64,000 bases of DNA, from contig NZ_JAGQCW010000001.1 in the NCBI RefSeq assembly GCF_024346395.1, positions 930,001-994,000 of the forward strand. The letters are read 5' to 3'. Below, one piece after another: positions 7,654-11,859 of the stretch; within the stretch, counting starts at the first letter, position 1, and every line of letters starts with the position of its first letter. Below the pieces are notes generated by a model. It was not told the origin of the DNA. It saw only the letters and a list, made by a program, of their open reading frames with translations, and searched no databases. The stretch comes from Cyanobium sp. AMD-g (GTDB lineage Bacteria; Cyanobacteriota; Cyanobacteriia; PCC-6307; Cyanobiaceae). The translations under genes were made by a program, and so were the position numbers.

Positions 7654-8838
7654 ATGGGTGCAGGTCAGCGAAGGATCCGGCAGGCGGCGGCCCCCTTGGC
7701 GGTTGTGCTCGGCACCGGCCTGACCCTGCCGTCCCTGGCGGCAACGCCCAAGCCGGGCGCCCCGCAGGCGGCCCCGGTGGCCACCTATGGCATCGAGGCC
7801 GTGACCAGCTCGGGCATGGGGGCGTCGGCCATGGGCGGCGCCGACATCATGCGGATGATGATGGGCGGCCGCCCTTCGATGAGCAGCACCAGCCGCCAGC
7901 TGGAGCTGCAGTTGCAGGCGCCCGGCAAGGCGGCCAGCCCCACAGCCGAGCACCGCATCCCTCCCGCCATGGCGATGGGCACGGCACTGCCGTTGCTGAG
8001 CGGCAGCGACAGCCCTGGGCAGCCCGCTCAGTGGCAGGACAAGGACATCCCTGAGCCGAAGGGGCGGCTGTTGATCTACCGAGGCTGCGCCGAAAGCGCC
8101 GGCGCCGGCCAGCCGGAGATCATCACCCTCAACGGGCTGTTGCCGCAGCAGCGTCGCCAGGCCCTGGAAGGCCTCAGGCGCCTGGCCGCCAGCCCCGCCG
8201 CTGGCGGCGCGCCCCTCACCAGCGGCCGCTGGCCCTCCGGCAATGAACCGCCGGCGGTGCCGCTGCAGGCCTCGCTGGTGGGCAGCCATGTGGTGGCGAG
8301 CAACTACGCGCCGGAGATCCGTTTCCAGGTGGAGAGCAGCCACGACTTCCTGGCCCCGGTGACGCTGACCACCGCCACAGCCGGCGGCGCCCAGCGACTG
8401 GCCTGGCAGCCCATCCCCACCGCCCTGGGCTACCAGGCCATGGCCACCGGCATGGGCCGCCAGGAGGGCGACATCGTCATGTGGACCTCCAGCGAGGCGC
8501 CCTGGGCCAACAGCTCGGTGCCGGGCGAACTGCGGGCCCCGGCAGCGGCCCGGCTGGTGCAACGCGGCGTGCTGCTGGCGCCTGAGCGCACCACCTGCTC
8601 CGTCAGCGCCCAGGCCATGGCAGCGATGCGGATGGCGATGCTCACCTTCACCGCCTACGGCGACACCCTGCTGCTGAACAGCGCCAAGGGCGCCCCCTCC
8701 TGGCGGCTCAGTCTGGAGCGGCGCTCCACCGCCATGCGTCCCATCGGGGAGGGTCTCGAGGGCCTCGATCCGGGAGCGGGTGCGGGGAAGGAGGAGCCCA
8801 AGAAACAGGGGGGCTTCAATCTGTTCAAGCTGTTCTGA
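7654..8838 (+). CDS. Exported protein of unknown function
   Basis: No family recognised with confidence. The 394-residue product has an N-terminal signal-peptide-like stretch (APLAVVLGTGLTLPSLAA, about residues 13-30) and is therefore probably periplasmic or surface-exposed. The mature part is rich in Gly, Ala, Met and Ser (for example GADIMRMMMGGRPSM near residue 65), shows repeated beta-strand-like segments in the middle (VVASNYAPEIRFQVESS), and ends in an unusual basic-aromatic tail, KKQGGFNLFKLF. The phrase STSRQLELQLQAPG near residue 75 resembles proteins I associate with alphaproteobacteria, so horizontal transfer is possible but not shown. Neighbours give no functional clue. Confidence 0.6.
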   Translation: MGAGQRRIRQAAAPLAVVLGTGLTLPSLAATPKPGAPQAAPVATYGIEAVTSSGMGASAMGGADIMRMMMGGRPSMSSTSRQLELQLQAPGKAASPTAEHRIPPAMAMGTALPLLSGSDSPGQPAQWQDKDIPEPKGRLLIYRGCAESAGAGQPEIITLNGLLPQQRRQALEGLRRLAASPAAGGAPLTSGRWPSGNEPPAVPLQASLVGSHVVASNYAPEIRFQVESSHDFLAPVTLTTATAGGAQRLAWQPIPTALGYQAMATGMGRQEGDIVMWTSSEAPWANSSVPGELRAPAAARLVQRGVLLAPERTTCSVSAQAMAAMRMAMLTFTAYGDTLLLNSAKGAPSWRLSLERRSTAMRPIGEGLEGLDPGAGAGKEEPKKQGGFNLFKLF

Positions 8839-8929
8839 AGGGGCGTCACGGCGGCTTTCGCTGAGGTCTCCCGTGCCGCAGCCGACCATCCAGCCCAGGC
8901 CGTGGCAAGACGTTGCCCCATTGACAGAT

Positions 8930-10663
8930 TCAGTGGCTAACCGCGCTCCTGCCTGCCGCCTGGCGCTTGAACCGGCCGATCTCCAGCTCGAGCACGCCTT
9001 CGCTGATCCCCAGCGCCCCGGCAAGCTCCCGAAGTCTGCTGTCTTCCTCGGGCTCGATCATGCCGTCGGCACAGGCGACGCGAAAAGCGGCTTCCATAAT
9101 CAGCTCGCGGCCGTTGTCATCGAGCCGCGCCCTTTCCTGCCGAAGACGAGCAAGGAGATCATCAAACGGTGATGGTGCAGCCGTGCCGGGCTCAGCATCG
9201 GTGCGCTGGCGCGCTTCAGCGGCTGCACGGAGTTCCTCGGGATCCGGTCGCACGCCCATGATCTCGGCACAGGTGTCGGCCATGGTCACCAGTTCGGGCG
9301 CTTCGATCTCGCCATCCGCCAGGGTGATGTCGATCATGCAGGCCAGCATGAGATCGCGCACCTTGGTGGCGTAGCGGTCACCAAGGGACACCGCCCAGCG
9401 CAGATCGGAGAGATCCCTTTGCTTGCGTTGGAGCTGGGAGGCCCTGGGATCGCGCTTGCAGCCGGTGTGGCCACCGGAGAGGCTGTCGTAGACGTGGAAG
9501 GTGAAACGTTCCACGAGCTGACGGCAGAAGGCGACCCCACGCACCGAGTTGCCGTAGGGATCGAGGCGGGGAGAAAACGTGGCGAATCCCATCAGGTTGG
9601 GCACCACCACCATCACCGCACCGGCCACCCCGGATTTCGCGGGCAAGCCCACCTCGAGCGTGAACACACCGGCGTTGTCATACATCCCGGCCGCCTGCAT
9701 CACGGACAGGGTCTTCTTGACCACATCGGTGGGCAGGATTTCACTGCCGGTGATCGGACACACCCCGCCATTGGCGAGGGTGGCGGCCGCCACCGAGAGC
9801 ATGTTGGCCGTCATCTCGATGCTGCAGCAGGAGAGATAAAGATCGAGCATCTTGTGGAGGTCCACCTGCCGCGGTAGTCCCTTTCGGCCCTGCAGCAGAT
9901 AGGCGATCGCGAAGTTGTTGTGCGCCGTTTCCCGCTCGGACAGCATCGTCTGCTCACTGAACCGCATCGGGCCCACCCCTCCGCAGAGGGCCGACCACAG
10001 GTTCATGATGTCCTCGGTGATCTCCCTGGCGTTCTTGTCCGGCCAGCCGGAGGCGACGACCCCGGCGGTCATGATGGCCCCGGCGTTCACGCAGGGGTTG
10101 AAGGGACGCATGTCCGGAAGCAGTTCGAGCGCGTTGAACGGGCGCCCGGAGGGCTCGACACCAACGAACTGATGGGTGAAGTCCGCTCCTTCACGATCCA
10201 GCGCATAGGCATAGGTGAGAGGTTTGGAAACGGACTGTATCGAGTGGTAGACATCAACATCCCCAATCGCCATCCGCTGGCCATCGACCGTACAGATCGC
10301 CACCCCCCACTTCTCAGGATCCGCATCCCGCAGGATCGGGATGTAATCGGCATTCGCGCCACTGACATCACGGGCGACATGGTCGTAGACAGTCTGTATA
10401 TCGCAGCAGAATTCAGCCCAGTCAGGAATAACAAGCTGGCGTCGCAAGGCTCGGTTGACCATCATCAGCTCTGGACCGACCAAACCAGCGAAGTTCTCCT
10501 GATCGATTGGCCTGCCGCCCAGGGCCGCCAGCCGGTCGATGGTGGTGCGCAGGCGAAAATCGTCGGCCGTGATGCCACTCTCGATCAGACGCGCCTGAAT
10601 CCTGGCGGCATCGGTTGTGCCGTTCTCCGAAACAGTCTCGAAAAGGGCCTGCATCCGATCCAT
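8930..10663 (-). CDS. glsA: Glutaminase with C-terminal TerB-like domain
   Basis: Hydrolyses glutamine to glutamate and ammonia. The 577-residue protein has three parts. Residues 1-75 resemble the EF-hand-like N-terminal region seen in animal and some bacterial glutaminases (IQARLIESGITADDFRLR). Residues about 80-390 are the beta-lactamase-like glutaminase domain, with the catalytic Ser144-x-x-Lys147 in QSVSKPLTY, followed by PFNPCVNAGAI and NGGVCPITG. Residues about 430-570 form a helical TerB-like region with two acidic motifs, DITLADGEIE and RVACADGMIEPEED. Ordinary bacterial glutaminases are near 310 residues, so the fusion is large. Base composition is less GC-rich than the neighbours, which would fit acquisition. 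Confidence 0.88.
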   Translation of the reverse strand: MDRMQALFETVSENGTTDAARIQARLIESGITADDFRLRTTIDRLAALGGRPIDQENFAGLVGPELMMVNRALRRQLVIPDWAEFCCDIQTVYDHVARDVSGANADYIPILRDADPEKWGVAICTVDGQRMAIGDVDVYHSIQSVSKPLTYAYALDREGADFTHQFVGVEPSGRPFNALELLPDMRPFNPCVNAGAIMTAGVVASGWPDKNAREITEDIMNLWSALCGGVGPMRFSEQTMLSERETAHNNFAIAYLLQGRKGLPRQVDLHKMLDLYLSCCSIEMTANMLSVAAATLANGGVCPITGSEILPTDVVKKTLSVMQAAGMYDNAGVFTLEVGLPAKSGVAGAVMVVVPNLMGFATFSPRLDPYGNSVRGVAFCRQLVERFTFHVYDSLSGGHTGCKRDPRASQLQRKQRDLSDLRWAVSLGDRYATKVRDLMLACMIDITLADGEIEAPELVTMADTCAEIMGVRPDPEELRAAAEARQRTDAEPGTAAPSPFDDLLARLRQERARLDDNGRELIMEAAFRVACADGMIEPEEDSRLRELAGALGISEGVLELEIGRFKRQAAGRSAVSH

Positions 10664-10863
10664 GGATCTTCCTGAACGCCAGGCAGGAGGCTATCCGCCT
10701 TCGTTCCCAGTGGCATCTCTGCAGGCGTTGGCCAGGCAGCACGGATGGAGTGGCCCCGCCCTTGAGCTGACCGTGAGTGCGTTCCGGCTCTCCTGCCCAT
10801 GGCGGGGCTTCTTAGCCTGGGCCCGATGACGGCACCCGATTCGCCGCCCGCAGGAGTCCGCCC
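10664..10863. other. Intergenic region between divergent glsA and the SDR gene
   Basis: About 200 nt that must carry the promoters of the glutaminase (reverse) and the SDR operon (forward). I see no tRNA, repeat or clear operator. An AGGAG ribosome-binding site at 10852-10856 lies 7 nt upstream of the TTG at 10864 and is the reason for choosing that start: the in-frame sequence upstream is closed by a TAG at 10813, and the nearby ATG at 10826 is in another frame. Confidence 0.5.
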
Positions 10864-11859
10864 TTGGCTGCAGCGCGCCACATCCTCCTGACCGGCGGCA
10901 ATTCCGGCATCGGCTTCGAGGCGGCGGTGATCCTCTGCCGGGCCGGCCACCGGCTCACCCTGCCCTGTCGGGACCTGGCCAGCGCCGAGGCGGCCGCACG
11001 CCGGGTGCTGGAGCGGGCCGGCACCGGCACACCGCCCGCCACCGCGGTCTGCGACCTGGCGGATCTGGAGAGCGTGCGGGCCTGTGCCGCCGCCCTGCTG
11101 GCCGAGGGGACCCCCATCGACACCCTCGTTCTCAATGCCGGCCTGCAGTACGCCGGTGCCAGCGAACCGCGCCGCACCGCCCAGGGCCATGAGCTCAGCT
11201 TCGGAGTGAATCACCTGGGACATTTTCTGGTGGCCCACCAGCTCTGGCCCCTGCTGGCGGCCGCCCAATCCCCGCGGCTGGTGGTCACCGCCAGCGAGGT
11301 GCACGACCCCACCACCGCGGGGGGCAAGGTGGGGGCGCCGGCGGGGCTCGGCGCGCTGGCGGGCCTGCGTCCGGGCGAGGGCACCACGATGGTGAACGGC
11401 ACCACTCCGTTCAGTGCCGACAAGGCCTACAAGGACAGCAAGCTCTGCAACGTCCTGTTCGCCCGCGAATTCGCCCGGCGCCTGGAGGCGCGGGGCACAC
11501 CCCTTCCCGTGATCGCCTGGAGCCCGGGGCTGGTGATCCCGCCCACCAGCGAGGGCGGCTTCTGGCGCTACAGCCGCCAGTCGAACGAACTGGGGCAGCG
11601 GCTGTTCGCCCTGGCGGCCCGCTCGCTGCTGCGCCTCACCGAGAGCGTCGAAAACGCCGGGGCGCTGCTGGCCGCCCTGGCCGTCGATGACGCCTACACC
11701 GCCGGCGGCTTCACCTACCTCCGCAACCGCGTCACGGCTCCGGGCCGGCACGTGTTCGAGGCCACCGCCACCAGCAGCGAAGGCCAGGACCCTGAACCGG
11801 CCCGGCGGCTCTGGGAGCTGAGTGCGGCCCTGGTGGGCGTGGAGGCCGATCGGCCTTGA
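10864..11859 (+). CDS. Short-chain dehydrogenase/reductase, protochlorophyllide-reductase-like
   Basis: NAD(P)-dependent oxidoreductase of the classical/extended SDR family, 331 residues. The cofactor motif TGGNSGIG is at residues 10-17, NAG (VLNAGLQYAG) follows near residue 90, and the catalytic Tyr-Lys pair reads AYKDSKL. The N-terminal GNSGIGFEAA and the FSADKAYKDSKLCN segment resemble light-dependent protochlorophyllide oxidoreductases and retinol-dehydrogenase-like SDRs, but the Cys residues expected of true POR are not clearly placed, so I do not call it chlorophyll biosynthesis. TTG start with a good AGGAG site. It is first of three overlapping genes: the hydrolase start overlaps its stop as TTGA. 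Confidence 0.85.
   Translation: MAAARHILLTGGNSGIGFEAAVILCRAGHRLTLPCRDLASAEAAARRVLERAGTGTPPATAVCDLADLESVRACAAALLAEGTPIDTLVLNAGLQYAGASEPRRTAQGHELSFGVNHLGHFLVAHQLWPLLAAAQSPRLVVTASEVHDPTTAGGKVGAPAGLGALAGLRPGEGTTMVNGTTPFSADKAYKDSKLCNVLFAREFARRLEARGTPLPVIAWSPGLVIPPTSEGGFWRYSRQSNELGQRLFALAARSLLRLTESVENAGALLAALAVDDAYTAGGFTYLRNRVTAPGRHVFEATATSSEGQDPEPARRLWELSAALVGVEADRP

Follow-up and report, generated by a model that had tools for sequence, protein, structure and literature searches.

What does a TerB domain do at the end of a glutaminase? The question is raised by a gene in the window, that is, the whole stretch of 64,000 nucleotides of Cyanobium sp. AMD-g DNA that was analysed, in which a glutaminase is joined to an EF-hand-like N-terminal part and a C-terminal TerB domain. 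How the C-terminal module of human GLS, which is a drug target, controls the enzyme is understood only in part. Within one cyanobacterial family, a GLS-type enzyme with TerB occurs alongside an ankyrin form, and the pair provides a natural domain swap for testing how GLS is controlled. The fusion enzyme would also let the role of TerB be read from a simple assay; according to PMC8123226, which concerns calcium binding by TerD, knowledge of TerB is scant.

The combination of these known domains is new, recurrent and patchily distributed. In the full-text literature, no paper joining glutaminase and TerB was found; Pasquali 2017 (JBC), on evolution, may mention such forms. A full-text search for glutaminase, tellurite resistance and fusion gave nothing relevant as judged by the listing, and one for glutaminase, ankyrin, bacteria, cyanobacteria and domain architecture gave no paper. 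Our reading, which we hold at about even confidence, is that the gene encodes an active GLS-type glutaminase in which TerB would serve as a regulatory module in the ankyrin position; activity, gating and ligand are what we infer.

Domain composition and constraint of the fusion protein

The preliminary description had proposed that a glutaminase is fused to TerB here. The open reading frame lies at that position (Table 1), and all three domains exceeded their curated Pfam cut-offs: Glutaminase (PF04960) with 323 bits against 27, TerB (PF05099) with 48 bits against 24.4 and its best stretch at residues 491-555, and EF-hand_14 (PF17959) with 35.5 bits against 23.7. The domain search suggested for the C-terminus therefore returned TerB, and the fusion recurs in other genomes, the two points on which the proposal was to stand or fall.

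Table 1. Features of the fusion gene and of its insertion site, in window positions.
Feature	Position	Strand	Basis or remark
EF-hand-like / glutaminase / TerB fusion gene	8930..10663	minus	ATG start, 577 aa, complete ORF
EF-hand_14-like N-terminal helical domain, residues 7-80	10424..10645	minus	Pfam; GAC alignment
Glutaminase catalytic domain, residues 102-392	9488..10360	minus	Pfam; active-site residues kept 26/26
Catalytic SxxK motif, Ser144-Lys147	10223..10234	minus	sequence
Conserved linker, residues 393-429 (K.DPR ... L..A...GD)	9377..9487	minus	collinear with human GLS
TerB domain, residues about 430-569, seven predicted helices	8957..9376	minus	profiles, models
Acidic motif 1 of TerB, ADGEIEAPE, residues 449-457	9293..9319	minus	present 25/26
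Acidic motif 2 of TerB, ADGMIEPEE, residues 532-540	9044..9070	minus	present 26/26
Single-gene insertion between two syntenic neighbours	8842..10792	.	blastn blocks end 8838-8841, restart 10793

The TerB fold is all-helical, with seven helices. In a whole-genome profile search, the TerB region covered profile positions 4-110 of 118, and the C-terminal 156 residues, modelled alone, gave a predicted structure of seven helices with a mean pLDDT of 88.8. The best VIA-align match of this model was 2ou3, the TerB of Nostoc (Z 8.9, rmsd 5.3, 138 aligned), followed by 2h5n (Z 8.3, rmsd 3.9, 114 aligned) and a next entry at 5.1, all below the Z of about 13 under which helical proteins may share only a common arrangement. 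Hence the weight is borne by the sequence match rather than by Z: the profile of the TerB domain found 2ou3 at 5e-7, with two S100 proteins (E 0.22 and 0.45) and the TerB protein 2jxu (0.59) at chance level. Foldseek alone placed 2h5n first at E 0.065 and returned nothing at E 0.001. Based on the model, the VIA-align matches and the profile matches together, the C-terminus forms a single TerB domain whose two halves each carry an acidic motif. The earlier claim of two acidic motifs in tandem helices stood with one correction, namely that the motifs mark the halves of a single domain and are more than tandem helices.

Conservation was read from 26 aligned proteins, comprising 24 of the 26 loci found in a genome scan (without the interrupted L081 and the remnant L085), the window protein and L057. 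The acidic ADG..E motif was present in both TerB halves of 25; the Polynucleobacter copy was without the first motif, with the second present and the gene retained. The stretch between the halves drifts, with a mean conservation of 0.48 in the same alignment.

By sequence, the best solved relatives of the protein were human GLS and GLS2 (E about 1e-97), and bacterial glutaminases ranked behind them, the salt-tolerant 3agd (8e-60) being the best and E. coli ybaS reaching 2e-47. The full-length AlphaFold model, built on 24 aligned sequences, had a mean pLDDT of 68.4 with both ends high, and the activation loop and some other stretches of the catalytic domain fell below 50, perhaps because the alignment was shallow. 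Residues 2-398 of the model nevertheless aligned with GAC (best Z 24.8, 343 aligned, rmsd 4.5), which bears out the described likeness of the N-terminus to animal glutaminase. The equivalents of Tyr249, Ser286, Lys289, Asn335, Glu381, Asn388, Tyr414, Tyr466 and Val484, which we in part take to be active-site or substrate-binding positions, were kept in 26/26. The SxxK motif and substrate-binding residues are thereby present as for a serine-dependent glutaminase.

The residues of the animal switch were different. The animal enzyme binds phosphate at Lys320 in its activation loop, and its subunits are joined by an Arg317-Glu325 bridge (PMC10912226). The equivalent of Lys320 was Ala, Ser or Asp and that of Arg317 was Pro in all 26 proteins, and that of Glu325 was Pro in 25 and Ala in one, so the animal phosphate switch is absent in the TerB family. 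The equivalent of Arg387 was Asn or Thr in this family, compared with Arg in 16 other glutaminases; at the Lys320 position these 16 had Ala or Ser (14) or Glu (2). With the activation-loop residues and Arg387 replaced, the animal gating cannot transfer whole.

EF-hand_14 was matched in 24/26 aligned proteins at E 0.01. A canonical 12-residue EF-hand loop was found in 0/26 with either a strict or a looser pattern, and calcium binding by the EF-hand-like part was rejected on this ground. Across 339 genomes of the phylum, EF-hand_14 exceeded its cut-off in three, all carriers of the TerB-glutaminase (the host, G045 and G106); two weak matches occurred elsewhere in the phylum, and one of 14 control genomes (Lactococcus lactis) had a match below the cut-off.

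The fusion gene is under purifying selection. Its dN/dS was 0.105 against a 94% relative; by part, the values against the closest relative were 0.053 for Glutaminase, 0.136 for TerB and 0.245 for the EF-hand-like part. When both of the closest relatives were considered, the values for Glutaminase and TerB ranged from 0.05 to 0.18, and the EF-hand-like part reached 0.41-0.49 against more distant ones.

Distribution and insertion site

Two strict peptide patterns, scanned against 84,980 species genomes, yielded the 26 loci, with 62-94% identity; the remnant L085 had 67% identity over 141 residues. All 26 aligned proteins carried Glutaminase and TerB at E 0.01, so the fusion is recurrent, as the preliminary description had anticipated. 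A full-length or nearly full-length match (E < 1e-200) was found in 10 of 201 genomes of the host's family, its own included; G045 carries the gene twice, and one further genome, G170, has a truncated remnant. The two copies of G045 (G045:C1; L054 and L057) are full-length TerB-glutaminases, 73% and 63% identical with the protein encoded in the window. Among 386 genomes across the phylum (E 1e-60), matches that included TerB occurred in three, all of the host's family.

Most loci are named Synechococcus, Cyanobium or cyanobacterium, and the isolates Polynucleobacter nymphae and Ancylobacter lacus are included. Record titles of metagenome-assembled genomes (MAGs) such as Bifidobacterium, Rhizobium and Planctomycetaceae were not trusted as host identities. 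PsaA/PsaB were found in 19/26 host genomes and absent in L067, L080, L072, L075, L077, L079 and L082. Of these, L067 and L080 were taken for cyanobacterial MAGs with gaps in their assembly, since their proteins cluster with those of cyanobacteria. One branch (100/99) united the two isolates with the three MAGs L072, L077 and L082, all lacking PsaA/PsaB; absence from a MAG may reflect incomplete assembly, but all five nonetheless group together. In this gene tree, of the kind that had been suggested for the architecture, the root inside the TerB family is unsure because the single outgroup has a very long branch. The Polynucleobacter gene has a GC of 0.416 against flanks of 0.42 and the Ancylobacter gene a host-like GC3 of 0.92; this host-like composition argues against contamination. 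Only the centre genome was matched among 398 sampled genomes of the Polynucleobacter phylum (1e-72), 121 of the Polynucleobacter genus (1e-60) and 119 of the Ancylobacter family (1e-72). Viral carriage was discarded, as a viral contig scan gave 26 pattern matches and no relative, and so was plasmid carriage, as none of the 207 plasmid records matched by tblastn contained a place that spanned 80% of the query.

In the host, the gene has a GC of 0.629 against a median of 0.708, and its GC3 of 0.768 is the lowest of 133 sampled host genes, itself included (median 0.886). These genes came from the window and eight further stretches, and the codon model used in sampling favours typical genes. Besides the host and its sister G132, which carries the fusion gene at the equal position, 11 genomes hold the left-hand neighbour (13 of the 21 genomes of the genus), and five of their regions were compared. 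By tblastn, the fusion gene was in none of the five; both neighbours were kept in four, and the search for the right-hand one was negative in L120, the fifth. DNA alignment of three regions left about 40 bp between the flanking blocks in G005; the intervening sequence was a different one of about 460 bp in G1194 and of about 1,415 bp in G198, where it contains a 225-aa ORF. The site, window 8838-10793 when set against L116, L117 and L118, is thus variable in relatives. This pattern would fit either gain in two genomes or loss in the others.

The lowest GC3 and a single-gene insertion at a site that is nearly empty in one relative lend good support to acquisition of the fusion gene, or to its having been gained and lost repeatedly. 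The acquisition first suggested from low GC alone is therefore upheld, with the patchy distribution alongside. In Synechococcus sp. GFB01 (L081) the copy is interrupted, perhaps by an assembly gap, and in Synechococcus sp. J7-Johnson (L085/L058) there is a truncated remnant; these two cases suggest that the gene has been lost in places and not just gained.

Repeat pairs at the borders of the insertion were all short and imperfect, with no convincing element ends, and a scan of 8700-10900 returned 0 promoters and 0 terminators. A conserved operon partner was dismissed, as no neighbour was kept across host groups with a crude gene calling. Many of the ORF clusters shared by three or more loci were frames overlapping the fusion gene itself. 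The others came from one set of eight loci in cyanobacteria, surrounding a gene judged by eye to be gyrA-like, from L058, L063 and L085, which represent one place, and from one cluster joining L062, L077 and L082.

What the TerB domain may do

In a tree of 39 catalytic domains, in which 11 rows chosen from the 26 stood for the TerB family, this family grouped with human GLS, with L059 as the ankyrin form, and with four short glutaminases of another class (100/100). The STAS and other cyanobacterial glutaminase types fell outside this group. Owing to long branches and a tool warning on the joining of human GLS, the branching order within it is tentative. Identity over the catalytic domain was 50% with human GLS and 47% with L059, against 45% and 37% with the host's own L002 and L003. 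The linker was as conserved as the catalytic domain (0.89 vs 0.86) and aligned without gaps with human GLS over a stretch that starts at KxDPR and ends at the GD of ankyrin repeat 1, a short match of one pair whose score was reached by 3/3000 shuffles. An ungapped match at the GD ankyrin turn was weaker, being equalled by 158/20000 shuffles with human GLS and 494/20000 with L059. Among the Pfam matches of the 26 members at E 0.01, the ankyrin family was absent and TerB stood instead. Since the linker is collinear with human GLS, there is a hint that TerB may have been grafted where ankyrin repeats began.

That TerB and ankyrin repeats were instead each fused independently to an ancestor of EF-hand-like part and glutaminase is a serious possibility, a little short of even, and is compatible with any functional reading. 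It draws on the separate long branches of the TerB clade, L059 and the short forms within one group, and on L059 being without the DPR part of the linker, but it sits poorly with the collinearity that the linker shows with human GLS as far as the first ankyrin turn. In the literature, ankyrin repeats were acquired early, according to PMC13142944 citing Pasquali 2017.

On our reading of TerB as a regulatory module, the protein would split glutamine into glutamate and ammonia through a serine-dependent, GLS-type core, formed by the EF-hand-like bundle and the catalytic domain in common with animal GLS. The seven-helix TerB domain is attached where animal GLS begins its ankyrin repeats. In human GLS2, the ankyrin repeats of two paired subunits are located between their N-terminal ends and hamper the motion by which the activation loop is set (PMC10912226), and TerB might hamper that motion likewise. 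A ligand or a partner protein would then release or apply this brake; the likeliest ligand would be a divalent cation at the conserved acidic motifs. Earlier work linked Ter proteins to metal; the acidic motifs are the foremost candidates for a ligand-binding site, and metal control of the enzyme is plausible. We regard as unlikely the stronger version, in which a metal- or stress-gated switch in the ankyrin position would turn a divalent cation signal into ammonia and glutamate, in a cassette that moves among several bacterial groups.

Two other views of TerB compete with the regulatory one. As a docking domain, it would place the glutaminase on a partner or membrane surface, with neither gating nor metal sensing; PMC8123226 mentions an assumed link between a TerC-TerB complex and the inner-membrane stress response, GLS2 ankyrin repeats have also been proposed as scaffolds (PMC8130709), and loss of the first acidic motif is tolerated in Polynucleobacter. 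We nevertheless consider docking rather unlikely: the crude gene calling revealed no neighbour kept across host groups as a possible partner, TerD had 0 matches in a profile search of the host genome and therefore no sign of a ter operon was seen, and the acidic motifs persist in 25/26 proteins though the stretch between them drifts. The host has one other TerB-type protein (25.5 bits), whose candidacy as domain donor was unsupported (32% identity over 38 residues, E 0.09). A purely structural or oligomerisation add-on, on an enzyme constitutively active for want of the phosphate-site lysine, appears improbable. The K320A exchange does make GAC constitutively active (PMC10912226), and all 26 proteins have Ala, Ser or Asp there, but the lysine is equally missing from the 16 other glutaminases and so says little, and long-term constraint on the TerB motifs suggests more than bulk. 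A reading of the gene as a functionless remnant of foreign origin, now in decay, was already disfavoured and is very improbable indeed; two of the 26 database loci are not intact (L085 truncated, L081 interrupted, perhaps by an assembly gap), yet the dN/dS of 0.05-0.18 in Glutaminase and TerB, the conserved active site and the host-like composition in Polynucleobacter and Ancylobacter all speak against decay.

Comparison with known systems

The host genome encodes two further glutaminases, L002 (662 aa, with cNMP-binding and STAS-like parts; its STAS match of 20.5 bits is just under the cut-off of 22.6) and the plain L003 (337 aa). They have the catalytic domain family and probably the reaction in common with the fusion protein, but differ in having other C-terminal modules or none and no EF-hand_14 match. 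L002 (1294-3282) directly follows a gene that is HD-domain-like by eye, and catalytic domains related to its own, in long open frames, are common in the host's cyanobacterial family. With TerB (COG3793; 2ou3 of Nostoc), the fusion protein shares the helical TerB fold and an acidic ADG motif per half; 2ou3 is a stand-alone protein, whereas the domain described here is attached to an enzyme, and no ter operon was seen.

The closest bacterial counterpart is L059 (7199-9112, genome G054 of the host's cyanobacterial family), the only protein of EF-hand-like, Glutaminase and ankyrin parts seen in the 201 family genomes. Its N-terminal and catalytic parts stand in equal order, its EF-hand_14 match (19.5 bits) is under the cut-off, and it has an ankyrin C-terminus and a near-canonical EF-hand loop, DLNHDGRV, neither of which the fusion protein carries. 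Animal GLS and GLS2 are alike in the EF-hand-like N-terminal bundle, the catalytic domain, the nine active-site residues and the collinear linker. They carry ankyrin repeats and Lys320, Arg317, Glu325 and Arg387, whereas the fusion protein carries TerB and has those four residues replaced.
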